DNA of 64,000 bases from Aquabacterium humicola (GTDB taxonomy: Bacteria > Pseudomonadota > Gammaproteobacteria > Burkholderiales > Burkholderiaceae_C): positions 930,001-994,000 of the forward strand of contig NZ_JARGNB010000001.1 of the NCBI RefSeq assembly GCF_030167915.1. The letters run 5' to 3'. A program made the translations under genes and the position numbers. Under the pieces are notes generated by a model that saw only the letters and a program-made list of their open reading frames with translations, ran no database searches and was not told the DNA's origin. How positions within the stretch are numbered: the first letter of the stretch is position 1; each line of letters begins with the position of its first letter. Shown one piece after another: positions 30,574-54,097 of the stretch.

Positions 30574-31228
30574 CGAGCACGTAGCCCAGACCGCGCAGCG
30601 TGTGGATCGCCGCGCCGCTGCCCTGCAGACGCCGCCGCAGCCGGTGCACGTAGACCTCGAGCGCGTCATGGCTCAGCACCTCGTCGCTGCTGCACAGCCG
30701 CTGCACCAGCGCCTGCTTGCTGACGGGCTTGCCCGGGTGCGCGATCAGCGCCTCGAGCAGGTCGTGCTCGCGCGGCGGCAGCTCCAGTGCCCTTCCGCCC
30801 TGCGCAAAGCGCCGCGTCACCGTGTCGAACGCCAGCGTGCCGACCTGCTGCACCGCGTGCGTCGCGCCCAGGCTGCGCCGGTGCAGCGCGCGCAGCCGCG
30901 CCTCCAGCTCGGCCAGTGCGAAGGGCTTGGGCAGGTAGTCGTCGGCGCCGGCGTTCAGGCCTTCGACACGGTCGCCGATCTCGCCGCTGGCGGTGAGCAC
31001 CAGCACCGGCACCGCGTCGCGGCGCTGGCGCAGGCGGCGCAACAGGTCCAGCCCGTGCAGCCGCGGCAGCGCGAGATCGAGCACCACCGCGTCGAAGGCG
31101 TGGTCGTGCAGTGCGCTGTCGCCGGCCAGCCCGTCGGTGCAGACGTCGGCCTGGATGCCGAGCGCCGCCAGCGACTGCTGCAGGGTGCGCGCGAGCTCGG
31201 CCTGGTCTTCGATCAGCAGGATGCGCAT
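30548..31228 (-). CDS. tctD: TctD-like OmpR-family response regulator
   Basis: 226 residues from the ATG at 31228. The receiver domain (1-~115) has the acidic pair in IEDQAE, the phosphoacceptor Asp51 (VVLDLALP), a Thr/Ser switch (LTASGE) and the invariant Lys in YLPKPF. The C-terminal winged helix (~130-222) ends in VHRLRRRL and HTLRGLGYVL, the OmpR/PhoB signature. Its 3' end overlaps the kinase gene. It is divergent from the solute-binding protein gene at 31336, 107 bp away. Likely targets are that promoter and the tctB/citrate-lyase spacer, both unproven. Confidence 0.9.
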   Translation of the reverse strand: MRILLIEDQAELARTLQQSLAALGIQADVCTDGLAGDSALHDHAFDAVVLDLALPRLHGLDLLRRLRQRRDAVPVLVLTASGEIGDRVEGLNAGADDYLPKPFALAELEARLRALHRRSLGATHAVQQVGTLAFDTVTRRFAQGGRALELPPREHDLLEALIAHPGKPVSKQALVQRLCSSDEVLSHDALEVYVHRLRRRLQGSGAAIHTLRGLGYVLDAVDDPPA

Positions 31229-31335
31229 GGGATGTGGCGGCGATTGTGATCGGGCGCGCGGCGGCACGCGAGCGCCTGCCGGCCGGCGCCGATAATCCAG
31301 CCAGCCCCCGCAGCGGGGACGACGGAGACAAGGGC

Positions 31336-32412
31336 ATGCCCAACCGACGCAGCGCCGGCCTGGCCATCGCGAGCGCGCTCGCCGGCGCAGCCGCGGGCAC
31401 GCCGTCGGGCGCAGCGGCGCGCGCCGCGGCGGCACCGCGCAAGGTGCGCGTCTGGGCCACCACCGACCGCCCGCTGGTGCAACCGCTGATCGATGACTTC
31501 GAGCAGCGGCACGCGCCGTGGCAGGTCGACTACGAGGCGCTGGGCAGCCAGACGCTGCACGAGCGCTTCCTGGCCGCCGACGGCGCCGGCGCCGATGTGC
31601 TGTGGAGCTCGGCGATGGACCTGCAGATCAAGCTGGTCAACGACGGCCATGCGCAGCGCCACGCGAGCGAGCATGCCGGCGGGCTGCCGCACGGGGCGGT
31701 CTGGAAGCACGAGGCCTTCGCGACCACCTGGGAGCCGGTGGCCCTGGTGCACCACCGCGCGCTGCTGGACAGCGCGAGCGCGCCCGACAGCCATGCGGCG
31801 CTGCGCGTGCTGCTGCAGCAGCAGCGCGCGCGCTTCCACCAGCGCGTGGCCACCTACGACATCGAACGCGCGGGCCTGGGCTTCCTGCTGGCGGCGCAGG
31901 ACCTGCAGGCCTCGTCCGATGCGTGGCCGCTGCTGGAGGCGCTGCGCCATTGCGGCGCCGAGCTGCACGCGGACACCCAGGCGCTGCTCGACGGCGTGGC
32001 CGCCGGCCGCACGCTGCTGGCCTACAACGTGCTCGGCCCGTACGCCGAGGCCTTCGCGCAGCGCCATCCGGACCTGGTGGTGGTCTACCCGCGCGACTAC
32101 ACGCTGATCGCCTCGCGCGTCGCGCTGATTCCGCGCCGCGCGCCGCAGCCCGAGGGAGCACGGCTGTGGCTGGACCACCTGCTGTCGCCGGCCGGGCAGC
32201 ACGTGCTGGCCGAGCGCTGCGGCCTCTACAGCGTGCGCGCCGACTCCTCGCTGCCGCGCTCGGCCGCCGGCCTGCAGCAGCGCCTGGGTCGAGCGGCACG
32301 GCCGATTCCGCTGGGGCCGGGGCTGATCGCGCACCTCGACCGCAGCAAGCGTCAGGCAATCCTGCGGCGCTGGCAGCGGGCGGGGGATGTGGCCGTCCAA
32401 CACCTGAAGTGA
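31336..32412 (+). CDS. periplasmic ABC-type solute-binding protein, AfuA-like
   Basis: 358 residues. The Ala-rich signal peptide (MPNRRSAGLAIASALAGAAA) is preceded by a weak ribosome site. The body is a two-lobed binding protein of the iron/phosphosugar (SBP_bac) type: VRVWATTDRPLVQPLIDDFE at the start, ADVLWSSAMDLQIKLVNDG, then YDIERAGLGFLLAAQ and LLAYNVLGPYAEAF. No ABC permease or ATPase gene follows; it sits divergently beside tctDE and convergent with tctA. This placement suggests it presents a ligand to the TctE sensor, or supplies a permease elsewhere. It is not a TctC/Bug protein by sequence. Confidence 0.8.
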   Translation: MPNRRSAGLAIASALAGAAAGTPSGAAARAAAAPRKVRVWATTDRPLVQPLIDDFEQRHAPWQVDYEALGSQTLHERFLAADGAGADVLWSSAMDLQIKLVNDGHAQRHASEHAGGLPHGAVWKHEAFATTWEPVALVHHRALLDSASAPDSHAALRVLLQQQRARFHQRVATYDIERAGLGFLLAAQDLQASSDAWPLLEALRHCGAELHADTQALLDGVAAGRTLLAYNVLGPYAEAFAQRHPDLVVVYPRDYTLIASRVALIPRRAPQPEGARLWLDHLLSPAGQHVLAERCGLYSVRADSSLPRSAAGLQQRLGRAARPIPLGPGLIAHLDRSKRQAILRRWQRAGDVAVQHLK

Positions 32413-32494
32413 GCGGATGCCGGGTGACGCCGCCACCACGACGGCGCCACCGCAACGCCACCCCTTCAGCGCCGCCACCTCGCGCGCCACCGCC

Positions 32495-34024
32495 TCACGC
32501 GGCGCTCGCCTGACCGGCCGCCGCGGCCGCGATCATGCGCCGCCGCCGGCGCGCCGCGGCCACGCGCGGCGCCACCAGCACCGCGATCACGATCACCAGC
32601 AGCGCCAGCGAGACCGGCCGCTGCACGAACACGCTCCAGCGCCCTTCGCCGATGGCCATCGCGTTGCGCAGCTGCGCCTCGGCCATCGGCCCGAGGATCA
32701 TGCCGACGATGACCGGCGCGGCGGGGAAGTCGTAGCGCCGCATCAGCACGCCGAACAGGCCGATCGCGTACATCAGGAAGAGGTCGAACGCGCTCTGCCG
32801 CATGCCGTAAACGCCGACGGTCGCGAACACCAGGATGCCCGCGTAGAGCGGCGCGCGCGGAATGCGCAGCAGCTTGACCCACAGCCCCACCAGCGGCAGG
32901 TTCAGCACCAGCAGCATCACGTTGCCGATGTACAGCGACGCGATCAGCGCCCACACCATCGACGCATTGGTGTCGAACAGCTGCGGCCCGGGCTGGATGC
33001 CGTAGTTCTGGAACGCCGACAGGATGATCGCGGCGGTGGTGGAGGTCGGGATGCCGAGCGTCAGCATCGGCACCAGCGTCGCGGTGATCGCGGCGTTGTT
33101 GGCGGCCTCGGGCCCGGCCACGCCCTCGATCGCGCCGGTGGTGCCGAACTCCTCCGGGTGCTTCGACAGCTTCTTCTCGGTGGCGTAGCTGAGGAAGGTC
33201 GGGATCTCGCTGCCGCCGGCGGGCACCGCGCCGAACGGAAAGCCCAGGAAGGTGCCGCGCAGCCATGCCGGCCACGAGCGGCGCCACTGGCTGCGCGTCA
33301 TGTGCACCCGGTTCATCTCGTTCAGCGACGACTTCACGCGGCCTTCGTAAAGCGCGGTGTAGAGCGTCTCGCCGACGGCGAACAGCCCCACCGCGACCAG
33401 CACCACCTCGAGGCCGTCGAGGAACTCGGGAATGCCGCCGGTGTAGCGCACCTGGCCGGTGATCTGGTCCAGGCCGACCAGGCCCATCGCCAGGCCGACC
33501 ACCAGCGCGGTCAGCCCGCGCAGCGTGCTGCTGCCGAGCACCGCCGTCACCGTCGTGAAGGCCAGCATCATCAGCATGAAGTACTCGGGCGGGCCCAACT
33601 GCACCGCGTATTCGGCGACCACCGGCGCGAACAGCGTCACCAGCACCGTCGCGATCGTGCCGGCGACGAACGAGCCGATCGCCGCGGTCGCCAGCGCGGC
33701 GCCGGCGCGGCCGTTCTTGGCCATCTTGAAGCCCTCGAGCGCGGTGACCATCGAGCCGGTCTCGCCCGGCGTGTTCAGCAGGATCGAGGTCGTCGAACCG
33801 CCGTACATCGCACCGTAGTAGATGCCGGCGAAGAAGATCATCGACGCGGTCGGCTCGACCTGCGCGGTGATCGGCAGCAGCATCGCGATGGTCACCGCCG
33901 GGCCGAGCCCTGGCAGCACGCCGATGGCGGTGCCCAGCGCGCAGCCGACGAAGGCCCACAGCAGGTTGATCGGCGTGGCGGCCGTCGCGAAGCCGGCCAG
34001 AAGGTGCGACCACAGGTCGATCAT
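32495..34024 (-). CDS. tctA: TctA large permease of tripartite tricarboxylate transporter
   Basis: 509 residues with 11-12 hydrophobic segments. Family hallmarks are [20 protein letters not shown], a [22 protein letters not shown] block near residue 70, a second GxxPGxx-type turn in [15 protein letters not shown], and [20 protein letters not shown]. TctA forms the Na+ or H+-driven channel for citrate or other carboxylates with TctB and a periplasmic receptor. The tctB gene precedes it by about 22 bp. No TctC is adjacent; the nearest Bug-type receptor is 15 kb away. Confidence 0.94.
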
Positions 34025-34046
34025 CGGTTTCCCCTCGTGTGCGGGC

Positions 34047-34574
34047 CTACAGCCAGCCGGTGCGCGTGAGCCCCGGCAGGTTGATCGCGAGCAGCTTCGT
34101 GAACAGCCAGTACGCGGGCGCCGCGATCAGCATGCCGGTCAGCAGGTCGGCCACCGCGCCGCGCAGGCCGCGGCCGGCCCGGCCCTCCGAGCGGCGCAGG
34201 CCGTGCACCGCGAAGGCAAAACAGCAGGCGCAGCTCAGGATGAAGCCGATGCGCTCGATCGCCGCGGCGTTCAGCAGCACGCCGGCCGAGATCCAGGCCA
34301 GCGCGTCCCAGTCGCCGCGCTCGACGCTGCCTTCGGCCACGCCGCGAAAGCCCCCGTGCTGCGCCTCCCAGGCCAGCCAGCCGCCGCAGCCCACCAGCGC
34401 CACCGCGACCAGCCAGGGCAGGAAGTTCGGGCCGACGCCGCCGTAGCCGGCCTCGCCCGGGATCGCCACCGCGCCGATGCCGTAGGCGATGCCCAGCAGC
34501 ACCGCGCCCAGGCCCACCAGCGTCTGGTGGACCGAGCCGCGGGCAGTGGCGGGCTCCATCGTGTCTGGCCGCAT
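34047..34574 (-). CDS. tctB: TctB small permease subunit
   Basis: 175 residues from the ATG at 34574 (GAGGAGA upstream); the frame is open to 34814 but that part runs through the promoter palindromes. Four hydrophobic helices match TctB: ~16-38 ([19 protein letters not shown]), ~48-68, ~90-112 and ~140-165, with the conserved [13 protein letters not shown] motif. It forms the TctAB membrane complex with the next gene. It is divergent from the citrate-lyase genes, with 260 bp of shared control region. Confidence 0.88.
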
Positions 34575-34691
34575 CGCAGGTCTCCTCGTCGCCTTGTTGG
34601 TGTTGCGGGGCTGTGGGCAGCGATGTTGCGGCGGTGGCGGCGCCCGAAGCTGTCGGCCACCTTTCATCGGGCGACCCCGCTCGCCGGGGTT

Positions 34692-34815
34692 TTCCCGCAT
34701 CGGGAATCCCGCAGGGGCCGATGACAGGCTTTCGAAAGCCCGCGCGGCCCGTGCCTTCCTAGCATGCCCTCGACACGTCCTGTCGACACATCGGTCGGCA
34801 GGTTCCGTCGACACG
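34692..34815. promoter_or_regulatory. divergent tctB / citrate-lyase control region
   Basis: Dyads and repeats lie between the two start codons. TTCCCG-CAT-CGGGAA (34692-34706) and GGCTTTC-GAAAGCC (34727-34740) are perfect. The octamer TCGACACG occurs at 34770 and 34808, with TCGACACA at 34783 inside the palindrome TGTCGACA (34781-34788). The perfect palindromes are likely regulator binding sites, possibly for TctD or a LysR/GntR-type regulator elsewhere. Promoter elements themselves are not obvious. Confidence 0.5.
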
Positions 34816-34834: not shown

Positions 34835-36166
34835 ATGAACATCACCGGCATGCTGCACGGCCAGCGCCTGCTGAAGCTGGCGGGCTTCCCAACCCCCGAA
34901 GTGCTCGGCCCCGACGCCAGCGAATCCGAGATCAAGGCGCTAATCGCCCGCCACGGCATGGTCTTCGTCAAGCCGGTCTTCAAGGGCGGCGTCGGCAAGA
35001 AGGGCAAGGCGGGCCTCGTCGGCCGCGCGAAGGACCTGAAGACCGCGCTGGCCGAGAAGGAACGGTTGTACTTCTGCGAGCACCGCCACGGCCACCAGGT
35101 GGCCAAGGCCAACGGCGTGACCTTCGAGGCCGCGGTGCCGTCGGACCACGAGGTGTACTTCTCGCTCACCGACAACACGCACTTCCGCGCGCCGACGATG
35201 ACGCTCACGCACCACGGCGGCGTCGACATCGAGGAGCTCGACCGGAGCCAGATCGCGGTGGTGCCGTTCAACCCCTTGACGGGACTGAAGGCCTTCGTCG
35301 TGGCCAACGCACTGTCGGAGATCAACGCGCCGCAGGCGCTGATCTCGCCGCTGGTGCAGCACCTGCCGAACCTGTGGGACCTGTTCCACGACTACGGCAT
35401 GACGACGCTGGAGCTGAACCCGATCCGCCTGCGGCCCGATGCCAAGGGCCGGCTGACACCGGTGGCATGCGACTTCAAGTGCGGCTTCGACCGCGACGAT
35501 CCGCGCTGGTCGCGCCTGGAGCTGCCGTCCGAGCTGTTCGCCGCCGACTACTCGGACTTCGAGTCCGAGATCAACCAGCTGCGCACCTACCAGGGCCAGA
35601 GCGACGTCTACGTGATCAACCCGCGCGGCACGATCCTCGCGCCCACCTTCGGCGGCGGCGCGAACTCGCTGGTGACCGAGATGCTCGGCGACGACGCGAT
35701 CATCAGCTCCGACTTCGGCGGCAACCCGCCGTACGCCAAGATGAAGTCGGTGGCCCGCGTGTGCTTCAAGCACTGGCTGGCGCAGAGCAACGTGCTGTTC
35801 ATCATCGGCGGCAAGAGCAACAACACCGACATCTTCGAGACCTTCCGCGCGATGGCCGACGCGCTGCGCGAGCACGTCGGCGCGCACGGGCCGCAGCCGC
35901 TGTACGTCGTCGCCGGGCGCGGCGGACCGAACCTGGTGCGCGGCATGGCGGTGCTGCGCGACACCTGCGAGTCGCTGGGGCTGCCGTACCGGCTGTTCGG
36001 CTTCGACTCGGCGATGAGCGAGGTCGTCGACTACGCGCGCCGCATCGACGCCTGGATGAAGTCCGGCGGCCGGGCGCAGATCGCGGCCCGGCTCGGGCTG
36101 TCCGGCGCCGCGGCCGAGCCGGTCGACGCAGTGGATGCGGCCCCTGCGGCCGGCGCGGCCGTCTGA
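34835..36166 (+). CDS. ATP-citrate-lyase-like subunit, ATP-grasp/citrate-binding
   Basis: 443 residues; GGAGGA precedes the ATG. The N-terminal half (~1-235) is an ATP-grasp fold like succinyl-CoA synthetase beta and ACL: FVKPVFKGGVGKKGKAGLV is the nucleotide-binding lysine/glycine loop, and TTLELNPIRL is the metal-binding Glu/Asn segment. The C-terminal part (~255-420) is a CoA-ligase/citrate-binding domain with RGTILAPTFGGGANSLVTEM, SDFGGNPPYAKM and IGGKSNNTDIFETFRAM. It pairs with the 899-residue protein 32 bp downstream. With ATP and CoA the complex would cleave citrate to acetyl-CoA and oxaloacetate. A role on a citrate analogue, such as 2-methylcitrate, is possible. Confidence 0.82.
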   Translation: MNITGMLHGQRLLKLAGFPTPEVLGPDASESEIKALIARHGMVFVKPVFKGGVGKKGKAGLVGRAKDLKTALAEKERLYFCEHRHGHQVAKANGVTFEAAVPSDHEVYFSLTDNTHFRAPTMTLTHHGGVDIEELDRSQIAVVPFNPLTGLKAFVVANALSEINAPQALISPLVQHLPNLWDLFHDYGMTTLELNPIRLRPDAKGRLTPVACDFKCGFDRDDPRWSRLELPSELFAADYSDFESEINQLRTYQGQSDVYVINPRGTILAPTFGGGANSLVTEMLGDDAIISSDFGGNPPYAKMKSVARVCFKHWLAQSNVLFIIGGKSNNTDIFETFRAMADALREHVGAHGPQPLYVVAGRGGPNLVRGMAVLRDTCESLGLPYRLFGFDSAMSEVVDYARRIDAWMKSGGRAQIAARLGLSGAAAEPVDAVDAAPAAGAAV

Positions 36167-36198
36167 CCTCCGAAGTACGCGTCATCAAGGAGATTCGC

Positions 36199-38898
36199 AT
36201 GTTTCGACAAGGCGTCGGCCCGTTCAAGTACTACACCGGCATCCAGTCGCTCGCGCAGATCGCCACCCGCGACGACCGCGTCTGCGTGCTGAACATCCTG
36301 GGCGGCGAATCGAGCGAGGTCACGCCGGTGGGCCATTCCTGGAGCGGCGGCAACGTCGTCTTCGGCACCTCGCCCGGGCGGCGCGGCCAGGTGCTGGAGA
36401 CGCCGGCCGGCCCGATCCCGGTCTACAACAACGTGCGCGAGGGGCTGGAGGACGGCCACCGCTTCAACTGCGGCGTGGTCTACCTGCCGCCGAGCGCGGC
36501 CGACGACGGCGTGGTCGAGCTGATCCGCGTGAACCCGGAGCTGACGAAGATCTTCATCCCCACCGAGAAGATGAGCGTGCACGACGCGCGCGAGATCCGC
36601 GCGCTGGCGCAGTCGCGCGGGATCGACATCTTCGGCGGCAACAGCCTCGGCGTGGCCGACAGCTGGCACCAGGTGCGCATCGGCGGCGCCCTGGGCGGCG
36701 ACCGGCCCGGCGACACGCTGCGCCGGGGCTCGATCGCCATCCTGTCCAACTCCGGCGGCTTCACGACGACGATTGCGCAGTACCTGCGCATGGGCGGCTG
36801 GGGCACGACGACGCTGGTCAGCTCCGGCAAGGACGTCTACATCCACTACGCGGCGCCCGAGTTCGCCTTCGCGCTCGGCCAGGACGACCGCAGCAAGGCC
36901 GCGGTGCTGTACTGCGAGCCCGGCGGCTACTACGAGCTCGACGCGCAGTTCACCAAGCCGGTCGTCGCCTGCGTCGTCGGCCGCTGGAAGAGCCGCCTGA
37001 CGCGCGCGGTCGGCCATGCCGGCGCGATGGCCGGCGGCGGCGACGACGCGGCGTCGAAGGAACGCTGGTTCATGGAGAAGTTCGGCGTCGACGCGCTGTT
37101 CACGCCGGAGCGGCCGGTGTGCTCGGCACGCGGCGCCGTGGTGACCAACATCGCGCACATCCCGGCCGCGCTGACCGCGGTGATGGCCGCCAACGGCCAC
37201 GCGCCCGACTTCGCGCCCGAAGGCACGATGGCGCTGAAGCCCTGGTTCGCCTCCGACCGCGGGCTGACGCTGCCGCCCGAGCTGGCGCTGCCGGTGGTGC
37301 GCGCGCTGCCGCCGTACGACGCGCAGATCGATGCGCTGTCGCGCCAGATCGGCGCGGTGTTCGCGCGCGAGACGATGAAGGACGCGTCCGGCGCGTCGCA
37401 GATGGACCCGCGCACGCAGATCACGCGGCTGCACGGCGTCTCGATGCTCGAGGCCGCGCAGCATCCGCTGGAGGCCAACGTGGGCCTGGCGCTGCTGAAG
37501 GAGCCGGGCGGCGACAACGACTGCAAGCTGGTCAACGTGGCGCTCGCCGCGCACCTGAACCTGCACGGCACGCCGATGCTCGCGGCGGCCGAAGCCGCGC
37601 GCGCCGGCGGCAACGCACCGAACGCCGTGGTTGCCGCCGCGCTGGCGATCGTCGGCCCCCGCTACAGCGAACGCGCACGCGCGCTGGTGCGCGAGCTGGT
37701 CGATCGCTTCAGCGCCGCCGGGCTCAAGGATGCGCTGGACGAGCGCTTCGAGCTTGGGACCCTGCTCGATGGCGGCGGCCCCGCGCTGCTGGCGCCGGCG
37801 CCCGATGCGCGCGCGCAGGCGCTGCTCGAAGGCCTGCGACAGCGCGGCGCGCGCTCGGTCTTCGTGCGCTTCATCGAGGCGCTCGGCGGCCATCCCAGCG
37901 CGGACGGCGTGCTGGCCGCGATCTGCGCCACGCTGGCCTGGGGCCCGCTGCAGCGCAAGCGCGTCACGCGGCTGACGGCCGAGTGCCTGCCGGCCTGGCT
38001 GCAGCTCTTCGGCACGCTGATCGGCGCCTCGGTGCCGGCCGCGCGGCACGAGCCGACGCGCTTCTGCGGCATCGACGAGGCCGAGCTGCTGGGCCGCCGC
38101 TCGATCGGCGAGGTGGCGTTCGTCGCGCTGCTGAAGTCGACGCCGAATGCCGGCGACCTGTTCGCGTTCCAGACGCTGCTGGGCCTGCTGCTGTCCAACG
38201 GCCCCGGCACCATCTCGGCCCAGGGCGCGAAGGGCGCGGTGTCCTCCGACGGGCCCGAGCAGCCCGACCGCGTGCAGCTCAACAAGGCGCTGCTCGGCTT
38301 CCTGAGCCACTGCGGCTATGCACACGGCGGCAACGGCTACGAGGGCGTGGCCTTCCTGCTGCAGCAGTTCGAGGGCAGCGGGCTGAAGGACCCCTCCGAC
38401 CCGCAGCACGGTGTCGACGTCGCCGCGCTGGTCGCGCGCTGCGTCGAGCGCTATGCGCGGTACAAGGCCGAGAAGAAGCACGCCGGCAGCCTCGAGATCC
38501 AGAAGATCCCGGGCGTCAACCATCCGGTGTTCAAGGACAAGCCGGTGAACCAGGACCCGCGCGAGGTCTTCGTCGCCCGGCTGATGCGCGAACGCGGCGA
38601 GCACAACGTCTTCCACGACTTCTACCGCGCGCTGGTGCAGCAGCTGTTCGACGCCGGCGTCGCGCGCACGGTGTACTGCGTGAACATCGACGCGGTGATC
38701 GCCGCGTTGCTGCTGAAGATGGTGTGGCCCGGCTACCGCAGCGGCGAGATCGACGCGCCGGCGCTCGAAGCGGCCGCCTTCACGATCTTCCTGTACGCCC
38801 GCATGCTCGGCTGCGCGGCCGAGGCGGACGACCACCTCAGCCGCGGCCGCGATATGGACACGCGCGCGCCCGCCTCGGCCTGCCGCTACGTCGCCTAG
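36199..38898 (+). CDS. ATP-citrate-lyase-like subunit: CoA ligase + citryl-CoA lyase
   Basis: 899 residues from the ATG at 36199, which has AAGGAG six bases upstream; the open frame before it belongs to no gene. Residues ~1-150 form a CoA-binding Rossmann domain. At ~150-345 is a succinyl-CoA-synthetase-alpha-like domain with the phosphohistidine motif VGHAGAMAGG (His273). A citrate-synthase-like domain follows to the C-terminus, with NGPGTISAQGAKG, a glycine loop HGGNGYEG, IPGVNHPVFKDKPVN (His775 aligns with the His of GHRVKS in eukaryotic ACL), VNIDAVIAAL and GCAAEADDHL. It would transfer phosphate to citrate, form citryl-CoA and cleave it. The lyase part is clearly divergent from classical AclA. 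Confidence 0.82.
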   Translation: MFRQGVGPFKYYTGIQSLAQIATRDDRVCVLNILGGESSEVTPVGHSWSGGNVVFGTSPGRRGQVLETPAGPIPVYNNVREGLEDGHRFNCGVVYLPPSAADDGVVELIRVNPELTKIFIPTEKMSVHDAREIRALAQSRGIDIFGGNSLGVADSWHQVRIGGALGGDRPGDTLRRGSIAILSNSGGFTTTIAQYLRMGGWGTTTLVSSGKDVYIHYAAPEFAFALGQDDRSKAAVLYCEPGGYYELDAQFTKPVVACVVGRWKSRLTRAVGHAGAMAGGGDDAASKERWFMEKFGVDALFTPERPVCSARGAVVTNIAHIPAALTAVMAANGHAPDFAPEGTMALKPWFASDRGLTLPPELALPVVRALPPYDAQIDALSRQIGAVFARETMKDASGASQMDPRTQITRLHGVSMLEAAQHPLEANVGLALLKEPGGDNDCKLVNVALAAHLNLHGTPMLAAAEAARAGGNAPNAVVAAALAIVGPRYSERARALVRELVDRFSAAGLKDALDERFELGTLLDGGGPALLAPAPDARAQALLEGLRQRGARSVFVRFIEALGGHPSADGVLAAICATLAWGPLQRKRVTRLTAECLPAWLQLFGTLIGASVPAARHEPTRFCGIDEAELLGRRSIGEVAFVALLKSTPNAGDLFAFQTLLGLLLSNGPGTISAQGAKGAVSSDGPEQPDRVQLNKALLGFLSHCGYAHGGNGYEGVAFLLQQFEGSGLKDPSDPQHGVDVAALVARCVERYARYKAEKKHAGSLEIQKIPGVNHPVFKDKPVNQDPREVFVARLMRERGEHNVFHDFYRALVQQLFDAGVARTVYCVNIDAVIAALLLKMVWPGYRSGEIDAPALEAAAFTIFLYARMLGCAAEADDHLSRGRDMDTRAPASACRYVA

Positions 38899-39004
38899 GC
38901 CCCGGCGACGAACGGCGTTCGCAGCGGCGCCCGCCACACGCGGGGGCTCGAAGGGCGCGGGCCGCCCCGCCCGCCCCTGCCCGCCCCTCCGCCCGCCCTG
39001 ATCG

Positions 39005-39023
39005 AAGCCCCTCGGGGTTTGTT
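39005..39023 (+). terminator. weak terminator after citrate-lyase genes
   Basis: AAGCCCC-TC-GGGGTTT (39005-39020), a seven-pair stem including one G-T wobble, then TT after one G. It is about 105 bp past the citrate-lyase stop and upstream of the aceE control elements, so it probably ends that transcript. Confidence 0.45.
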
Positions 39024-39074
39024 CGTAGAAGCCGGCCCGGCACGCCGGACAAGCCATCGGCCCGAAATCCGGAT

Positions 39075-39095
39075 CGGCGGACGACCGCTCCGCCG
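39075..39095. promoter_or_regulatory. CGGCGGA-N7-TCCGCCG dyad upstream of aceE promoter
   Basis: A perfect 7-bp inverted repeat with a 7-base spacer, about 60 bp upstream of the -24/-12 element. Distance and symmetry suit an enhancer site for a sigma-54 activator such as DctD. It is not followed by a T-run. Confidence 0.4.
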
Positions 39096-39116
39096 GACAT
39101 CGGCGAAGGTCTTTTA

Positions 39117-39129
39117 AATCAATCACTTG
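39117..39129 (+). promoter_or_regulatory. IHF-binding site, consensus match
   Basis: AATCAA-TCAC-TTG matches the IHF consensus WATCAANNNNTTR at every defined position, within the only A/T-rich patch of this spacer. It lies 27 bp upstream of the -24 element, the classic place for IHF to bend DNA between activator and sigma-54 polymerase. Confidence 0.65.
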
Positions 39130-39155
39130 GCGCGCATCCCGTTCCCGATGTCACG

Positions 39156-39170
39156 TGGCACGGGGGTTGC
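39156..39170 (+). promoter_or_regulatory. sigma-54 (-24/-12) promoter of the aceE operon
   Basis: TGGCACG-GGGG-TTGC matches the -24/-12 consensus TGGCACG-N4-TTGC exactly, with the GG and GC doublets separated by the invariant 10 bases. Transcription would begin near 39182, giving a leader of about 50 bases before the aceE ATG at 39232. With the IHF-like site and the upstream dyad it forms a complete sigma-54 promoter layout. Confidence 0.75.
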
Positions 39171-39231
39171 GAATCGTCTAACAAGCCGCATCGCCCGGTG
39201 CGCGACAAGACCACGACTGAAGGAGACAGGC

Positions 39232-41895
39232 ATGGGCGACCTCGACCCCACCGAAACCGTCGAATGGATGGACGCGCTGAGCGCGGTCCGGCAACACCGC
39301 GGCAGCGAGCGCAGCAACTACCTCCTCAACCGCCTGGTCGACCAGGGCCGGCGCGAGGGTGTCTACGTGCCGCGCTCGCTGACCACCGCGTACTGCAACA
39401 CCATCCCGCCGGAGCGCGAGGAGAAGAGCACCGGCGACCGCGCGATCGAGCACCGGCTGCGCTCGATCATCCGATGGAACGCGATGGCGATCATCCTGCG
39501 CGCCAACAAGGATTCGTCGGAGCTCGGCGGCCACATCGCCAGCTTCCAGTCGGCAGCGACGCTCTATGACATCGGCTTCGGCCACTTCTGGCACGCGCCC
39601 ACCGACACGCACGGCGGCGACCTGCTGTTCATCCAGGGCCACAGCGCGCCGGGCATCTATGCGCGCGCCTTCCTCGAAGGCCGGCTCAGCGAATCGCAGC
39701 TGCTGAACTACCGCCAGGAGACCGAGGGCAAGGGCCTCTCGTCCTACCCGCACCCGTGGCTGATGCCGGACTTCTGGCAGTTCCCCACGGTGTCGATGGG
39801 CCTGGGGCCGCTGATGGCGATCTACCAGGCGCGCTTCCTGAAGTACCTGCAGGGCCGCGGCCTGGCCGACACCAGCCAGCGCAAGGTCTGGGCCTTCATG
39901 GGCGACGGCGAGATGGACGAGCCCGAATCGCTGGGCGCGATCTCGCTGGCCGGCCGCGAGAACCTGGACAACCTGGTCTTCGTCATCAACTGCAACCTGC
40001 AGCGCCTGGACGGCCCCGTGCGCGGCAACGGCAAGATCGTGCAGGAGCTCGAGAGCGTCTTCCGCGGCGCCGGCTGGAACGTCATCAAGGTCTTGTGGGG
40101 CAGCGGCTGGGACGAGCTGCTGGCGCGCGACAAGAGCGGCAAGCTGCTGCAGCGCATGGAAGAGTGCGTCGACGGCGAGTACCAGGACTTCAAGAGCAAG
40201 AGTGGCGCCTACGTGCGCGAGCATTTCTTCGGCAAGTACGAAGAAACCAAGGCCCTGGTCGCCGGCATGAGCGACGACGAGATCTGGGGCCTGACGCGCG
40301 GCGGGCACGACCCTGTCAAGGTCTTTGCGGCTTATGCCGCCGCGGTGAAGCACACCGGCCAGCCGACGCTGATCCTGCCGAAGACGGTCAAGGGCTACGG
40401 CATGGGCGAATCGGGCGAAGGCCAGATGATCGCCCACCAGGCCAAGAAGATGACGCAGGACGCGCTGCGCGGCTTCCGCGACCGCTTCCAGATCCCCGTC
40501 TCGGACGAAGACCTTGCTTCGGTCCCCTTCGTCAAGCTGCCCGAAGACAGCCCGGAGATGAAGTACCTGCGCGAGCGGCGCGCGGCATTGGGCGGCTACC
40601 TGCCGCAGCGCCGCCGCAAGTCGGCTGCGCTGGAGATCCCGCCGCTGGCGAGCTTCGAGCGGCTGCTGAAGGACACCGGCGAGCGCGAGATCTCCACCAC
40701 GATGGCCTTCGTGCAGATGCTGGGCAGCCTCGTGCGCGACAAGGCCATCGGCAAGCACGTGGTGCCCATCGTGCCGGACGAGTCGCGCACCTTCGGCATG
40801 GAGGGCATGTTCCGGCAGCTGGGCATCTGGTCGTCGCTGGGGCAGCTGTACAAGCCGCAGGACGCCGACCAGCTGATGTATTACCGCGAGTCGAAAGACG
40901 GGCAGGTGCTGCAGGAGGGCATCAACGAAGGCGGCGCGATGTCGAGCTGGATCGTCGCGGCCACGTCGTACAGCACGAACAACGTGCCGATGATCCCGTT
41001 CTACATCTACTACTCGATGTTCGGGCTGCAGCGCGTTGGCGACCTGGCCTGGCTGGCCGGCGACATCCGCGCCCGCGGCTTCCTGCTCGGCGGCACCGCC
41101 GGCCGCACGACGCTGAACGGCGAAGGCCTGCAGCACGAGGACGGCCACAGCCACATCCTGGCCGGCACGATCCCCAACTGCATCAGCTACGACCCGACCT
41201 TCGCGTACGAGGTGGTGACGATCATCCGCGACGGCATGCGGCGCATGTATGCCGAGCAGGAGGACGTGTACTACTACGTCACGCTGATGAACGAGAACTA
41301 CCCGCACCCCGGCATGCCCGAGGGCAGCGAGGCGGGCATTCTCAAGGGCCTGTACCAGCTGAGCGACGGCGGCAAAACCCCGAAGAAGGGCCACCGCGTG
41401 CAGCTGATGGGCAGCGGCACCATCCTGCGCGAAGTGATGGCCGCGGCCGAGCTGCTGAAGGCCGACTTCGGCATCGCCGCCGACGTGTGGAGCGCCACCA
41501 GCTACAACGAGCTGCGTCGCGACGGCATGGCCGCCGAGCGCTGGAACCGGCTGCACCCGGCCGAGCCGCCGCGCAAGAGCCATGTCGAGGCCTGCCTCGA
41601 AGGCCACGACGGCCCGGTGATCGCCGCCACCGACTACATGCGCAACTATGCCGACCAGGTGCGCGAGTACGTGCAGGCCGCGGGCCGGCGCTACACCGTG
41701 CTCGGCACCGACGGCTTCGGCCGCAGCGACTACCGGCGCAAGCTGCGCCGCTTCTTCGAGGTCGACCGCTGGCACGTGGCCGTGGCCGCGCTGAAGGCGC
41801 TGGCCGACGACGGCGTCATCAAGCCGGCGATCGTGGCCGAGGCGATCACGCGTTATGGGCTCGATACCGAGCGTGCAGCCCCCTGGACGGTCTGA
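39232..41895 (+). CDS. aceE: pyruvate dehydrogenase E1, homodimeric
   Basis: 887 residues from the ATG at 39232 with AGGAGA five bases upstream; an earlier in-frame ATG (39127) lies inside the promoter region. It matches alphaAceE length. Features are SELGGHIASFQSAATLYDIG, GHSAPGIYARAFLEGRL, the thiamine-diphosphate motif GDGEMDEPES..INCNLQRLDGPV (about 224-262), and the transketolase-like C-terminal domain (TLNGEGLQHEDGHSHI). It decarboxylates pyruvate and passes the acetyl group to E2 lipoyl arms. It is the first gene of a co-directional set whose sigma-54-type promoter lies directly upstream; aceF starts 7 bp after its stop. Confidence 0.97.
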   Translation: MGDLDPTETVEWMDALSAVRQHRGSERSNYLLNRLVDQGRREGVYVPRSLTTAYCNTIPPEREEKSTGDRAIEHRLRSIIRWNAMAIILRANKDSSELGGHIASFQSAATLYDIGFGHFWHAPTDTHGGDLLFIQGHSAPGIYARAFLEGRLSESQLLNYRQETEGKGLSSYPHPWLMPDFWQFPTVSMGLGPLMAIYQARFLKYLQGRGLADTSQRKVWAFMGDGEMDEPESLGAISLAGRENLDNLVFVINCNLQRLDGPVRGNGKIVQELESVFRGAGWNVIKVLWGSGWDELLARDKSGKLLQRMEECVDGEYQDFKSKSGAYVREHFFGKYEETKALVAGMSDDEIWGLTRGGHDPVKVFAAYAAAVKHTGQPTLILPKTVKGYGMGESGEGQMIAHQAKKMTQDALRGFRDRFQIPVSDEDLASVPFVKLPEDSPEMKYLRERRAALGGYLPQRRRKSAALEIPPLASFERLLKDTGEREISTTMAFVQMLGSLVRDKAIGKHVVPIVPDESRTFGMEGMFRQLGIWSSLGQLYKPQDADQLMYYRESKDGQVLQEGINEGGAMSSWIVAATSYSTNNVPMIPFYIYYSMFGLQRVGDLAWLAGDIRARGFLLGGTAGRTTLNGEGLQHEDGHSHILAGTIPNCISYDPTFAYEVVTIIRDGMRRMYAEQEDVYYYVTLMNENYPHPGMPEGSEAGILKGLYQLSDGGKTPKKGHRVQLMGSGTILREVMAAAELLKADFGIAADVWSATSYNELRRDGMAAERWNRLHPAEPPRKSHVEACLEGHDGPVIAATDYMRNYADQVREYVQAAGRRYTVLGTDGFGRSDYRRKLRRFFEVDRWHVAVAALKALADDGVIKPAIVAEAITRYGLDTERAAPWTV

Positions 41896-41902
41896 GGCAC
41901 CC

Positions 41903-43495
41903 ATGAGCAACATCGACATCCAAGTGCCCGACATCGGCGACTTCAACGACGTGCCGGTGATCGAGATCTTCGTCAAGGTCGGCGACGTGGTGAAGGCCGA
42001 GGACCCGCTGGTCTCGCTGGAATCGGACAAGGCAACGATGGACGTGCCGGCACCGCGCGGCGGCACGGTGCGCTCCATCGCGGTGAAGGTCGGCGACAAG
42101 GTCAGCCAGGGCACGGTGATCATGGCCTTCGACAACGGCGTCGCCGCACCTGCCGCGGCACCGGCCGCGGCCGCCAAGCCCAGCGTCAGCGCCCCGCCCT
42201 CGCCGGTCAACGCGCCCACCGGCCTCGCCGAGGTGCGCGTGCCCGACATCGGCGACTTCAAGGACGTGCCGGTGATCGAGGTCTTCGTCAAGGTCGGCGA
42301 TGCGGTGAAGGCCGAGGATCCGCTGGTCTCGCTGGAGTCCGACAAGGCGACGATGGACGTGCCCGCGCCGCTGTCGGGCGTGGTGCAGGCGATCCAGATC
42401 CAGGTCGGCGACAAGGTCAGCGAAGGCTCGGTGATCCTGACGCTGGCCACCGGGGATGCACCGGCGGCTGCCGTGGCTGCGCCAGCCGCAGCCGCTGCCA
42501 CGCCGGCACCCGCAGCGGCCGCTGCCGGCAGCCGCATCGACGAAGCGGCCTTCTCGCTGGCGTATGCCGGCCCCGCGGTGCGCAAGCTGGCGCGTGAAAT
42601 GAGCGTCGACCTCGGCCTCGTGAAGGGCAGCGGCGCGCACGGCCGCATCGTGCGCGAGGACGTGCTGGCCTTCGCCAAGGGGGGTGCGCCAGCGGCGGCC
42701 CCCGCGGCAGCCAAGGCGGCCGCCGCACCGGCCGGCGGTGGCGCCGGCCTCGACCTGCTGCCGTGGCCGAAGGTCGACTTCGCGAAGTTCGGCCCGGTCG
42801 AGCGCAAGGAGCTGTCGCGCATCAAGAAGATCTCGGCCGCCAACCTGCACCGCAACTGGGTGGTGATTCCGCACGTCACCACGCACGACGAGGCCGACAT
42901 CACCGAGCTCGAGGCCTTCCGCGTGCAGATGAACAAGGAGCTCGAGAAGTCGGGCGTCAAGCTCAGCATGCTGCCTTTCATGATGAAGGCGGCGGTGGCG
43001 GCCTTGAAGAAGTTCCCGGAGTTCAACGCCAGCCTTGAATCCACAAACTCGGGCGACGCCCTGGTGCTGAAGAACTACTGGCACATCGGCTTCGCCGCCG
43101 ACACGCCCAACGGCCTGGTGGTGCCGGTGATCCGCGACGTCGACAGGAAGACCGTGCCCGACATCGCGAAGGAGATGGGCGAGCTGGCCAAGCTGGCGCG
43201 CGACGGCAAGCTGAAGCCCGACCAGATGCAGGGCGGCACCTTCACGATCAGCTCGCTGGGCGGCATCGGCGGCATCTACTTCACGCCGATCATCAATGCG
43301 CCCGAGGTCTCGATCATGGGCGTATGCAAGAGCTACTGGAAGCAGGTGTCCAGCGACGGCAAGCAGTACCAGTCGCGCCTGATCCTGCCGCTGTCGCTGT
43401 CCTGGGACCACCGCGTGATCGACGGCGCCGCGGCCGCTCGCTTCAACGTCTACTTCGCCAGCGTGCTCGCCGACCTCCGGCGCGTGCTGTTCTGA
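41903..43495 (+). CDS. aceF: dihydrolipoamide acetyltransferase (PDH E2), two lipoyl domains
   Basis: 530 residues from the ATG at 41903. Two N-terminal lipoyl domains (about 4-75 and 108-180) each carry the lipoylated Lys in ESDKATMDVP; they are near duplicates, each starting VPDIGDF. Ala/Pro-rich linkers separate them from the E1/E3-binding domain (~220-256, AGPAVRKLAREMSVDLGLVK) and the catalytic domain (~290-530), which ends in the active-site SWDHRVIDGAAAARF (His and Asp). It takes acetyl from E1 and gives it to CoA. It is one of the lipoate-dependent enzymes served by LipA in the same operon. Confidence 0.97.
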   Translation: MSNIDIQVPDIGDFNDVPVIEIFVKVGDVVKAEDPLVSLESDKATMDVPAPRGGTVRSIAVKVGDKVSQGTVIMAFDNGVAAPAAAPAAAAKPSVSAPPSPVNAPTGLAEVRVPDIGDFKDVPVIEVFVKVGDAVKAEDPLVSLESDKATMDVPAPLSGVVQAIQIQVGDKVSEGSVILTLATGDAPAAAVAAPAAAAATPAPAAAAAGSRIDEAAFSLAYAGPAVRKLAREMSVDLGLVKGSGAHGRIVREDVLAFAKGGAPAAAPAAAKAAAAPAGGGAGLDLLPWPKVDFAKFGPVERKELSRIKKISAANLHRNWVVIPHVTTHDEADITELEAFRVQMNKELEKSGVKLSMLPFMMKAAVAALKKFPEFNASLESTNSGDALVLKNYWHIGFAADTPNGLVVPVIRDVDRKTVPDIAKEMGELAKLARDGKLKPDQMQGGTFTISSLGGIGGIYFTPIINAPEVSIMGVCKSYWKQVSSDGKQYQSRLILPLSLSWDHRVIDGAAAARFNVYFASVLADLRRVLF

Positions 43496-43513: not shown

Positions 43514-45274
43514 ATGACGCAATTGATCGAAGTGAAGGTCCCGGACATCGGTGACTTCAAGGATGTGGCGATCATCGAACTGATGGTCAAGCCGGGCGAG
43601 GTGATCGCCGTCGAGACCGGACTGATCATGGTCGAGTCCGACAAGGCCTCGATGGAGATCCCGTCGACGCATGCCGGCACCGTGAAGGCGCTGAAGGTCA
43701 AGCTGGGCGACAAGGTCAGCGAAGGCTCGGTGATCCTGGTGCTGGAAGCGGCGGGCGCTGCGGCTGCCGCGCCGAGCCCGGCCCCGGCGCCCGCGGCCTC
43801 CGCGCCGGCACCGGCCGCAACCCGGCCCGCGCCCAGCGCCGGCAGCTACGCCGGCAAGGCCGACGTCGAGTGCGAGATGCTGGTGCTCGGCGCGGGCCCC
43901 GGCGGGTATTCGGCCGCCTTCCGCAGTGCCGACCTCGGCATGAAGACCGTGCTGGTTGAACGTTATGCCACGCTCGGCGGCGTCTGCCTGAACGTCGGCT
44001 GCATCCCGTCGAAGGCGCTGCTGCACACGGCAGCGGTGATGGACGAGGTCAAGTCGCTCGGCCACCACGGCATCAAATACGCGGCGCCCGAGGTCGACAT
44101 CGACGCGCTGCGCGGCTTCAAGGACGGCGTGGTCAAGAAGCTCACCGGCGGCCTGGCCGGCATGGCCAAGGCACGCAAGGTGGAGGTGCTCACGGGCGTC
44201 GGCAGCTTCGTCGATCCGCACCACCTCGAGGTGCTGGCGGCCGACGGCAGCAGGCGCATCGTGAAGTTCGCCAAGGCCATCATCGCCGCCGGTTCGCAGG
44301 CGGTGAAGCTGCCCTTCATGCCCGACGACGAACGCGTCGTCGACTCCACCGGCGCGCTGCTGCTCAAGGGCATCCCGAAGCGTTTGCTGGTGGTCGGCGG
44401 CGGCATCATCGGCCTGGAGATGGCCACCGTCTACTCGACGCTGGGCACGCGCGTCGACGTGGTCGAGATGCTCGACGGCCTGATGCAAGGCGCCGACCGC
44501 GACCTGGTGAAGGTGTGGGAGAAGCTGAACGCGCCGCGCTTCGACAAGGTGATGTTGAAGACGAAGACGGTCGGCGCGAAGGCGACGAAGTTCGGCATCG
44601 AGGTCAGCTTCGAGGGTGAGCAGGCGCCGAAGGAGCCGCAGTTCTACGACCTGGTGCTGGTGGCCGTCGGCCGCAGCCCCAACGGCAGGAAGATCGCCGC
44701 CGACAAGGCGGGCGTGCTCGTCACCGAGCGCGGCTTCATCGAGGTCGACCGGCAGATGCGCACCAACGTGCCGCACATCTTCGCCATCGGCGACATCGTC
44801 GGCCAGCCGATGCTGGCGCACAAGGCGGTGCACGAGGCGCACGTGGCGGCTGAAGCGGCGCATGGTGAGGCGGCCTTCTTCGACGCACGACAGATCCCCT
44901 CGGTGGCCTACACCGACCCCGAGGTGGCCTGGGCCGGCAAGACCGAGGAGCAGTGCAAGGCCGAAGGCCTGAAGGTCGGCAAGGCGGTGTTCCCATGGGC
45001 TGCGTCGGGGCGCGCCATCGCCAACGGCCGCGACGAAGGCTTCACCAAGCTGCTGTTCGACGAGGCCACGCAGCGCATCGTCGGCGGCGGCATCGTCGGC
45101 ACGCACGCCGGCGACCTGATCGGCGAGGTCTGCCTGGCCATCGAGATGGGTTGCGAGCCGGCCGACATCGGCAAGACCATCCACCCGCATCCGACGCTGG
45201 GTGAATCGATCGGCATGGCCGCCGAGGTCTTCGCCGGCCACTGCACCGACCTGCCGCCGCAGAAGAAGAAGTGA
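43514..45274 (+). CDS. lpdA: dihydrolipoamide dehydrogenase (PDH E3) with N-terminal lipoyl domain
   Basis: 586 residues. A lipoyl domain (residues ~4-77, Lys in ESDKASMEIP) and an Ala/Pro linker precede the E3 core, an arrangement common in betaproteobacterial PDH E3. The FAD motif GAGPGGYSAAFRSADLG, redox disulfide GGVCLNVGCIPSK, NAD motif VVGGGIIGLEMATVY and the C-terminal active-site HPHPTLGES (His and Glu) are all present. It re-oxidises dihydrolipoamide with NAD+. It is 18 bp after aceF in the same operon, and the hydrolase gene starts 11 bp after its stop. Confidence 0.97.
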   Translation: MTQLIEVKVPDIGDFKDVAIIELMVKPGEVIAVETGLIMVESDKASMEIPSTHAGTVKALKVKLGDKVSEGSVILVLEAAGAAAAAPSPAPAPAASAPAPAATRPAPSAGSYAGKADVECEMLVLGAGPGGYSAAFRSADLGMKTVLVERYATLGGVCLNVGCIPSKALLHTAAVMDEVKSLGHHGIKYAAPEVDIDALRGFKDGVVKKLTGGLAGMAKARKVEVLTGVGSFVDPHHLEVLAADGSRRIVKFAKAIIAAGSQAVKLPFMPDDERVVDSTGALLLKGIPKRLLVVGGGIIGLEMATVYSTLGTRVDVVEMLDGLMQGADRDLVKVWEKLNAPRFDKVMLKTKTVGAKATKFGIEVSFEGEQAPKEPQFYDLVLVAVGRSPNGRKIAADKAGVLVTERGFIEVDRQMRTNVPHIFAIGDIVGQPMLAHKAVHEAHVAAEAAHGEAAFFDARQIPSVAYTDPEVAWAGKTEEQCKAEGLKVGKAVFPWAASGRAIANGRDEGFTKLLFDEATQRIVGGGIVGTHAGDLIGEVCLAIEMGCEPADIGKTIHPHPTLGESIGMAAEVFAGHCTDLPPQKKK

Positions 45275-45285
45275 GGCGCCGCAGC

Positions 45286-46101
45286 ATGGCACTCAACCTG
45301 GCCTTCGAGACGGTGGGCAGCGGCCCGCCGGTGCTGGTGCTGCACGGCCTGTTCGGCTCCGGCGCCAACTGGCGCAGCGTCGCGCGGCACCTGGCGATCA
45401 CGCACACGGTGCACAGCGTGGACCTGCGCAACCATGGCTCGTCGCCGTGGGCCGACACGATGGGCTACGGCGAGATGGCCGACGACGTGCTGCAGCTGAT
45501 GGATCGCCTGGACCTGCGGGCGCCGACGGTGATCGGCCACAGCATGGGCGGCAAGGTGGCGATGGCGCTGGCGCTGCGGCAGCCGCAGCGCATCGGCGGC
45601 CTGGTGGTCGTCGACATCGCGCCGGTGTCGTATGCCGACACGCTGACGCCGTTCGCGCAGGCGATGAGCGCGGCCGACGTGATGGCCACAGCCAGCCTCG
45701 CCGAAGTGCAGCGGCGGCTGCAGCAGGCCGTGCCCGATCCCGGCGTCGTGCCCTTCCTGATGCAGAACCTGGTGCGCCACAACGACCACTTCGACTGGCG
45801 CATCAACCTGGTCGGCATCTGCGCCGCGATGCCGCAGCTGTGCGGCTTCCCGGCGGAGCTGCTGGGCGCCCGTTTCGAGCGGCCGGTGACGGTGATCGCC
45901 GGCGAGCGCTCCGACTACGTGCAAGCGCGCGACGGCGCGGCCTTCGCGCCGACGATGTTCCCGCGGGCGCAGCTCGACGTGGTCGCCGGCGCCGGCCACT
46001 GGGTGCACGCCGACCAGCCCGCGGCATTCGTGGTCAGCGTGAAACAGGCCCTCAAGCGATCGGCGTCGGTGCGGCGCGCGCCGGCGGCCAGCACCACCTG
46101 A
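45286..46101 (+). CDS. alpha/beta hydrolase, YbfF-like
   Basis: 271 residues from the ATG at 45286. Compact fold: LVLHGLFGSGANWRSVA, VDLRNHGSS, nucleophile elbow GHSMGGKVAMALAL (Ser ~83), and a C-terminal AGAGHWVHAD with the catalytic His. This is the YbfF/acyl-CoA thioesterase-like esterase group. Its presence inside a PDH operon could indicate removal of stalled acyl-CoA or esters, but this is speculative. It is translated between lpdA and maeB (gaps 11 and 31 bp). Confidence 0.85.
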   Translation: MALNLAFETVGSGPPVLVLHGLFGSGANWRSVARHLAITHTVHSVDLRNHGSSPWADTMGYGEMADDVLQLMDRLDLRAPTVIGHSMGGKVAMALALRQPQRIGGLVVVDIAPVSYADTLTPFAQAMSAADVMATASLAEVQRRLQQAVPDPGVVPFLMQNLVRHNDHFDWRINLVGICAAMPQLCGFPAELLGARFERPVTVIAGERSDYVQARDGAAFAPTMFPRAQLDVVAGAGHWVHADQPAAFVVSVKQALKRSASVRRAPAASTT

Positions 46102-46132: not shown

Positions 46133-48430
<2,298 letters not shown>

Positions 48431-48439
48431 AGGCCCGTG

Positions 48440-52145: not shown

Positions 52146-52511
52146 AGGGGGCGCCGAGATGCGACATCAGCCGCTTGAAGGATCAGGCCAGCAGGGAGCG
52201 CGTGCTGGGGTTGGGAATGCCGGCACCGAGCGCGCCAAGGCCACTGGGTGCCCGGCTCCGCTCATGTCCCCCGGGCCGTACGGCGCTGATATGCCCAGGC
52301 TGGATCCCGGCCGGCCCTCCTCCTTGACTTCGCTACGCCGGGCACCCAGCGCCCTTGGCTCTAGAGACACCGTGGCATGCGACGGCCCGGGGGACATGAG
52401 CGGAACAGAGCGCCCCGTCGGCCTGATCTTGCGCGGTGGCACGCATGCGACGGCGAACGCCCACGCTCGTTTCATGCGTCAAGTCACGCGAAGCGCAGTG
52501 GAGTAACCGAC
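52146..52511. other. structured intergenic region before phaC
   Basis: 366 bp without a convincing gene; short frames on both strands read through repeats and lack protein character. It holds a nested inverted-repeat element (52234-52404) and otherwise ordinary GC-rich sequence. The phaC promoter must lie here, yet no good -35/-10 pair was found. TTGACT at 52324 lacks a matching -10. Confidence 0.5.
52234..52404. repeat. nested inverted repeats B-A-B'-A'
   Basis: Segment A (52257-52279) and A' (52382-52404) are a perfect 23-bp inverted repeat centred on CCCCCGGGCC. Segment B (52234-52256) and B' (52337-52359) are a 21-of-23 inverted repeat containing TGGGTGCCCGGC. Order along the strand is B, A, spacer, B', A', so the B stem encloses A and the two pairings interlock (pseudoknot-like). 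It looks like a miniature mobile or REP/BIME-type element, or an RNA switch, between ndh and phaC. Confidence 0.75.
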
Positions 52512-54059: not shown

Positions 54060-54097
54060 ACGCCGCTTCCAAGTTCCCAACCCCGAAGGAGAATGAC

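Follow-up and report, generated by a model that had tools for sequence, protein, structure and literature searches.

The window analysed here is a 64,000-nt stretch of contig 1 of the 7.39-Mb genome of Aquabacterium humicola (NZ_JARGNB010000001.1, positions 930,001–994,000). It contains an aceE-aceF-lpd-esterase-maeB-lipA-dctA-ndh gene run on the plus strand, in which the intergenic gaps do not exceed 46 nt. The first three genes encode a pyruvate dehydrogenase (PDH) E1 of the homodimeric type (aceE, 39232–41895; TIGR00759, 1475 bits against a cut-off of 860), an E2 with two lipoyl domains (aceF, 41903–43495; TIGR01348, 651 bits against 552), and an E3 with an N-terminal lipoyl domain (lpd, 43514–45274; TIGR01350, 459.5 bits against 408.8). 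They are followed by a gene for an alpha/beta hydrolase (45271–46101), which we call an esterase from its matches to esterase models, although all 25 matches listed were below the cut-off. The maeB product (46133–48430) is a malic enzyme fused to a phosphotransacetylase domain (PF00390, PF03949, and PF01515), and its score against the NADP-dependent malic enzyme model NF009501 was 1161.5 bits, slightly below the cut-off of 1178. A lipA-type lipoyl synthase gene (48437–49381; TIGR00510, 425 bits against 310) and dctA, encoding a C4-dicarboxylate symporter (49421–50764; NF002461, 730.7 bits against 513), come next. The run closes with a gene for an NDH-2-like pyridine nucleotide oxidoreductase (50811–52145; PF07992), whose name ndh is inferred; no NCBIfam model reached its cut-off among the 25 matches listed for this product.

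The polyhydroxybutyrate synthesis genes phaC-phaA-phaB (52512–56155, plus strand; PF07167, thiolase and short-chain dehydrogenase families, with TIGR01838 over its cut-off) begin 366 nt beyond ndh. No terminator-like site was found in this gap. It holds a long inverted repeat (52236–52425) with 44-nt arms that are 82% complementary, which is possibly a mobile repeat or a processing site. Farther along the plus strand are a DUF6781 gene and the cytochrome bd genes cydA and cydB (56166–59308; PF20572 and PF01654), of which cydB was named by its place after cydA, and then a gene for a family-3 periplasmic solute-binding protein of the glutamate/aspartate type (59356–60285; PF00497). In the related genome G015, the run ends after ndh, and the part from pha to dctBD lies on a separate contig; because the run stops there, aceE to ndh may form one transcription unit, as this arrangement suggests.

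A gene pair resembling dctB and dctD (60293–63503) lies downstream of the aceE run and on the same strand. The sensor region of the kinase (60293–62131) matched solved DctB sensor domains, with 3e4o as the best match (E 1.6e-24), and the kinase part was most similar to FixL-type kinases. The second protein (62040–63503) is a sigma-54 activator with a receiver, an AAA+ domain, and a Fis-type helix-turn-helix domain (PF00072, PF00158, and PF02954). Its receiver matched that of DctD (1qkk) with an E value of 1.8e-30, the best among the receiver-only chains, and longer NtrC-family chains outscored 1qkk overall. Since no NCBIfam model names the kinase or the activator as DctB or DctD, the two names rest on the structure matches and on the neighbouring genes. 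The genome possesses another DctBD-like pair on contig 2 (L193, 12739, plus strand), facing a -24/-12 match that is preceded by TGTGCGG-N4-CCACACA, a kind of site different from the CCGG-N4-CCGG repeats described below. The gene next to this second pair reads like an Lrp/AsnC regulator.

On the other side of the run, an ATP-citrate lyase-related gene pair (34835–38898, plus strand) is situated directly upstream of the aceE promoter. It encodes citrate-binding and succinyl-CoA ligase-like domains with a weak match to citryl-CoA lyase, and a related pair is found upstream, in the opposite orientation, in the relative G286. Beyond it, a TctA transporter gene (PF01970) and a 2CSK_N-type sensor kinase gene (29218–34814, minus strand) face away from the PDH operon. 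The open reading frame beside the TctA gene had no NCBIfam match and is TctB by place only. This segment is possibly a tricarboxylate-uptake set beside the dicarboxylate set.

The first-pass annotation had placed a sigma-54 promoter and an IHF site before aceE, and both are present exactly where it put them. The -24/-12 element (39156–39170, plus strand) reads TGGCACG-N4-TTGC, TGGCACGGGGGTTGC, with the GG-N10-GC arrangement in good consensus, and it is the highest-scoring site of this kind in the 64-kb window. The base following TTGC in the sigma-54 consensus is A or T, and the window site has G there. A transcript start is predicted near 39182. The IHF site (39117–39129, plus strand), AATCAATCACTTG, matches WATCAANNNNTTR exactly, and 26 bp separate it from the -24 element. 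We scored sigma-54 elements with a home-made weighted match (maximum 15.1) and a threshold of 13.7, the score of the weakest member of the group A loci defined below, which was chosen after that group had been seen. Dinucleotide shuffling of the 300 bp upstream of this aceE (3000 replicates) reached the threshold in 0.1% of cases and produced an exact IHF site in 0.03%. The strict -24/-12 pattern matched 9 times in the 7.39-Mb genome and its reversed counterpart 5 times, and taken alone it is weak to modest evidence; therefore, we examined its conservation. A pattern joining the two elements (ATCAAN4TTR-N10-36-TGGYN7YTGC) matched once in the genome, at this promoter, and the reversed control also matched once.

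The genome carries two matches to PF04552 (rpoN) and a gene for IHF alpha over the respective cut-offs. The two rpoN copies prompted a search for a nitrogen-fixation link, which was discarded: in none of 12 genomes did a nifH match pass the curated cut-off. Matches of 193–234 bits, below the cut-off, in G427, G041, G217, and G286 are probably bchL/chlL/bchX-type relatives, as we infer.

The search for relatives covered a sample of 399 genomes of the family, with two AceE candidates scored per genome. It gave 12 AceE loci at 87% identity or more, and the next match was only 66%; over the full length, the AceE proteins of G231 and G427 were 85% identical. The 12 loci fall into group A (the window locus, G015, G125, G065, G276, G286, G407, and G231) and group B (G041, G133, G217, and G427).

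All eight group A loci possess the -24/-12 element, 74 to 99 bp before the start codon or the beginning of the gene match. The IHF site is exact in seven of them and has one mismatch in G407. Measured from the T of the -24 element, it lies at -38 to -40 in seven loci; in G231 the position is -29, nearer by about one helical turn. In the group A alignment, these blocks are largely invariant amid poorly conserved sequence (mean column identity 57%). The gene content behind the promoter is also shared. maeB lies behind the PDH genes in 8/8 loci (cut by a contig end in G125), and dctA follows in all seven whose contig extends that far. Those seven genomes encode a DctD 68–100% identical to that of the window. 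Its gene is on the same stretch in five, whereas G015 and G286 have it on a different contig. Within the stretches read, lipA was not seen in G407 and G286, phaC in G276 and G231, or cydAB in G407.

The first-pass annotation had also proposed a perfect 7+7 dyad upstream as the third element of the promoter. The dyad CGGCGGA/TCCGCCG is present and perfect at 39075–39095. Scanning of the same region revealed perfect 7+7 dyads in three group A loci (the window locus, G015, and G125), with differing sequences and places, and none in the other five. With neither sequence nor place kept among the eight loci, the dyad was rejected as an enhancer and is probably incidental. Of the three proposed elements, then, the -24/-12 and IHF sites are conserved and the dyad is not.

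The conserved candidate enhancer is instead a pair of CCGG-N4-CCGG repeats, for which we propose DctD as the binding protein. Repeat 1 (CCGG-CACG-CCGG, 39037–39048) lies at -118 to -120 from the -24 T in seven of the eight group A loci, five of them exact and two with one mismatch. Repeat 2 (CCGG-ATCG-GCGG, 39069–39080) lies 32 bp after it, at -86 to -88 in 7/8 loci with 0 to 2 mismatches. The spacing of the pair is exactly 32 bp in seven loci, and the repeats are degraded in G231 (two mismatches). A single CCGG-N4-CCGG says little because 9.2% of the 3000 dinucleotide shuffles of the same 300 bp contain an exact one. Just upstream of repeat 1 is a GGGGTTT element (39014–39020, plus strand); its GGGTT lies 140 to 142 bp before the -24 T in seven group A promoters, and the distance is 132 bp in G231.

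The group B loci differ in both promoter and gene content. None of the four has a -24/-12 match at the threshold or an exact IHF site, and no maeB, dctA, or dctBD accompanies their PDH genes in the stretches read. Three of the four carry the operator TTGGTNNNACCA, which we take to be PdhR-like from the E. coli PdhR consensus and which occurs in no other of the 150 AceE regions scored in the survey below. The window operon lacks such a PdhR-type operator, and TTGGTNNNACCA is found in 0/8 group A loci. In G217, a GntR/FCD regulator gene is divergent from aceE. A relative of the window DctD at E 1e-100 was found in one of the four group B genomes, G217 (68% identity, unlinked). Among the group B loci, only G427, whose contig breaks off inside phaB, keeps lipoyl synthase between the esterase and ndh; in G133 and G217, a lipoyl synthase relative lies upstream on the opposite strand. 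The GG-N10-GC spacing, whose loss in close relatives the first-pass annotation had named as a refutation, is thus kept in the seven relatives of group A and lost in the four slightly more distant loci of group B, which have a different gene content. These results support the proposal of an IHF-assisted sigma-54 promoter before aceE, in contrast to control of the PdhR type.

In the AceE tree, seven group A members form one clade (100/99), and G231 groups with Bradyrhizobium (94/98). Three group B members group together (84/81), and G427 is loosely placed. Because they are related, the eight group A loci do not represent eight independent events; G231, however, stands apart on the tree. Bradyrhizobium sp. 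Ec3.3 has an AceE 82% identical to that of the window, together with aceF and lpd (L048, 10001–16015), and is the organism with which G231 groups; horizontal transfer between classes is possible. A promoter of the window type was not found before its aceE. In G231 (L172/L173) and at another locus (L050, 7319–10943), a relative of the family-3 solute-binding protein directly precedes aceE, hinting at a tie between such a binding protein and the PDH system.

The window aceE is one of three in the genome; the two further gene products share 65% and 57% identity with the window AceE. The 300 bp upstream of these two genes scored 10.1 and 12.4 of 15.1, below the promoter threshold. An AceE match was obtained in 20 of 21 genomes of the genus, and the window type (over 90% identity) in 2/21, the window genome and G015. 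Because two other AceE genes exist and the window type is rare in the genus, the operon, judged from these comparisons, is a secondary PDH and not the housekeeping PDH of the genus. The first-pass annotation had suggested that entry of carbon into acetyl-CoA would be conditional on an external signal. Since the two other aceE genes lack the promoter, the general supply of acetyl-CoA need not depend on the signal; as for the signal itself, C4-dicarboxylates sensed by the DctB-DctD-like pair at 60293–63503 are the most likely.

We surveyed 153 AceE loci, consisting of the best 30 per genome search and the best 80 of at least 594 stretches in one search. Scores could be assigned to 150; L035 and L044 had no start, and L021 had no upstream sequence. 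Eleven regions reached 13.7, comprising nine group A rows (L049, from Pelomonas sp. Root1237, duplicates L129) and two of the 141 others, L006 at -248 and L051 at -87. L051, with maeB nearby, lacks an exact IHF site, and the 21.9 kb examined there contained no match to dctB or dctD. Exact IHF sites occurred in 3/141 of the other upstream regions, none of which reached the sigma-54 score. With 2/141 other regions at the threshold, the idea that aceE is generally under sigma-54 control was rejected.

The same promoter architecture was found at dctA itself. In the unlinked dctB-dctD-dctA set of G217, the promoter of dctA comprises two exact repeats (-117 and -85), an IHF-like site with one mismatch (-38), and the element TGGTCCCCGGCTTGC, so that the geometry is nearly that of the aceE promoters. 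G407 has, as a second and separate set, a dctA-DUF6781-dctB-dctD module in which a repeat at -68 and the IHF site at -28 are both exact; the -24 T of its element, TGGCACGCGCATTGC, is 50 bp before the dctA start. We combined the first repeat, the IHF site, and the -24/-12 element into a composite motif with loose spacing and ran it over 399 genomes of the family; because promoters of group A and G217 had served as the model for the pattern, the search was not fully blind. It gave 14 matches in 14 genomes, and the reversed control gave none. Every match precedes dctA (8) or aceE (6), and the gene match begins 36 to 80 bp downstream. Seven matches (the six before aceE and that at the dctA of G217) were expected because the pattern was derived from them. 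The other seven (G113, G279, G202, G087, G209, G104, and G211) are new, and all precede a dctA whose product is 80–88% identical to the window DctA. G286 and G231 were missed by the strict pattern because their first repeat departs from it.

Repeat 2 was outside the composite pattern, and it was found at +32 with two mismatches or fewer in 13 of the 14 matches, including six of the seven new ones. At other offsets, the counts were 6/14 (+24), 5/14 (+40), and two or fewer for all the rest tested. The second repeat is weak or missing at full match in the dctA module of G407 and in the new match L209. GGGTT starts exactly 22 bp before repeat 1 in nine of the 14 matches (6/6 before aceE and 3/8 before dctA). 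These results indicate that the window promoter has the same elements and spacing as the dctA promoters beside this DctBD subfamily.

On this evidence, we consider it very likely that 39014–39170 is a dctA-type promoter that depends on sigma-54 and DctD, is assisted by IHF, and heads the PDH-malic enzyme-dctA run. An unlikely alternative accepts the sigma-54/IHF promoter as real and assigns it to another enhancer-binding protein, responding, for example, to acetoin, acidic amino acids, or nitrogen, with DctBD as a mere neighbour. Candidates are available, as PF00158 gave 17 matches over the cut-off genome-wide, of which 12 are strong and one lies inside the window. The binding protein gene that precedes dctB, being of the glutamate/aspartate type, also fits this alternative, as does G125, which has the promoter and in whose assembly of 430 contigs a whole-genome search at E 1e-100 detected no DctD. 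However, 8 of the 14 composite matches precede dctA, seven of them new, and promoters of the composite type stand beside the unlinked dctBD pairs of G217 and G407. Furthermore, the recognition-helix stretch is (R/K)QTL in all 10 DctDs from group A and the dctA modules, whereas the six others compared have KKTL, RKTL, or RRTL.

It is quite improbable that the upstream and leader repeats are operators of another repressor and not an enhancer. At the start of the leader, the inverted repeat CGCATC-GCCC-GGTGCG (39187–39202, plus strand) could serve such a function. Among seven aligned loci (six distinct sequences), two of its six pairs show two-sided changes, but this covariation is borderline (33 of 500 shuffles were as high). 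The PdhR-like operators in 3/4 group B relatives point in the same direction, although TTGGTNNNACCA is absent from all eight group A loci. Another form of control could also be suggested by a terminator-like stem-loop with a T-rich tail (39091–39105, plus strand) between the enhancer repeats and the IHF site, but the single such site in 38500–39700 is at chance level (0.8 expected). The 32-bp spacing and upstream position of the CCGG-N4-CCGG repeats fit an enhancer. The leader repeat was likewise rejected as an RNA element and is considered a minor part only: the leader of the window operon folded no better than its shuffles, and only G276 among the eight leaders folded distinctly (z -2.6). 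Least probable of all is that the -24/-12 and IHF sites are decoys before a constitutive or sigma-70 operon whose conserved block serves something else; the roughly twofold excess of the strict pattern over its reversed control would allow this, but the joint conservation with near-fixed geometry, the 14 composite matches against none, all before two functionally linked genes, and the lack of any sigma-70-type promoter found in 38500–39700 argue against it.

The DctD-dependent promoter would function as follows. DctB would bind periplasmic malate, succinate, or fumarate and phosphorylate DctD, which would then bind the two CCGG-N4-CCGG repeats, three helical turns apart. With the DNA bent by IHF at 39117–39129, DctD would open the sigma-54 polymerase complex at 39156–39170, and transcription would start near 39182. 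From a single predicted transcript, the cell would make DctA for uptake, malic enzyme for conversion of malate to pyruvate, and a dedicated PDH for conversion of pyruvate to acetyl-CoA. An NADH dehydrogenase and a lipoyl synthase to serve the additional lipoyl domains would be made as well. This would feed the TCA cycle as well as polyhydroxybutyrate synthesis by the neighbouring genes. Regarding its origin, we lean towards promoter capture, in which a dctA-type promoter came to head an operon leading from uptake to acetyl-CoA; the orthologous operons without dctA appear to be under PdhR-like control, which would amount to a natural switch of one enzyme complex between being activated and being repressed. 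If this is true, C4 acids are directed into acetyl-CoA and storage polymer by a dedicated, signal-gated PDH.

In this case, an external nutrient signal appears to induce a PDH operon along with the transporter and malic enzyme needed to produce its substrate. With two promoter types on the same operon, the 12 clade members offer a natural comparison for regulator change in central metabolism. The analysis also provides a predicted enhancer, CCGG-N4-CCGG repeated 32 bp apart, for a DctD subfamily, and it may be relevant to bioplastic yield from organic acids.

PDH is usually discussed as repressed by pyruvate-sensing regulators, and the products of the Bacillus aco and bkd operons are both lipoyl-dependent complexes. 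The DctD site of S. meliloti differs from CCGG-N4-CCGG, which counts against the proposed DctD reading. As described in excerpts of the respective reports, the S. meliloti dctA promoter is driven by truncated DctD (PMC3844500), IHF stimulates dctA in R. leguminosarum and not in S. meliloti in vitro (PMC9827912), and the acetoin (aco, AcoR) and branched-chain (bkd) operons of Bacillus are under sigma-54 (PMC4428206). Among the titles and abstract openings listed for the open-licence literature, none reports a sigma-54- or DctD-controlled aceE operon, an absence that carries little weight. The parts are of known kinds, such as IHF at dctA and sigma-54 on aco and bkd; therefore, the novelty lies in their combination on PDH. 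The window system resembles rhizobial DctB-DctD/sigma-54/dctA in its dicarboxylate sensor kinase, NtrC-type activator, -24/-12 promoter, and DctA as a target. Unlike rhizobial dctA, the window promoter heads a PDH-malic enzyme-lipoyl synthase-dctA run, its candidate enhancer consists of two CCGG-N4-CCGG repeats 32 bp apart, and dctBD lies downstream on the same strand. With Bacillus aco and bkd it shares a dehydrogenase-complex operon behind a sigma-54 promoter, which is predicted in the window; those operons serve acetoin and branched-chain acids, whereas the window combines a PDH of the homodimeric AceE type with a transporter and a dicarboxylate sensor. Finally, it is a regulated AceE-type PDH operon like pdhR-aceEF-lpd with its PdhR-type (GntR/FCD) regulator, an arrangement that group B approaches with TTGGTNNNACCA in 3/4 loci; unlike PdhR-type repression, group A lacks the operator and carries sigma-54 elements of the activator type.
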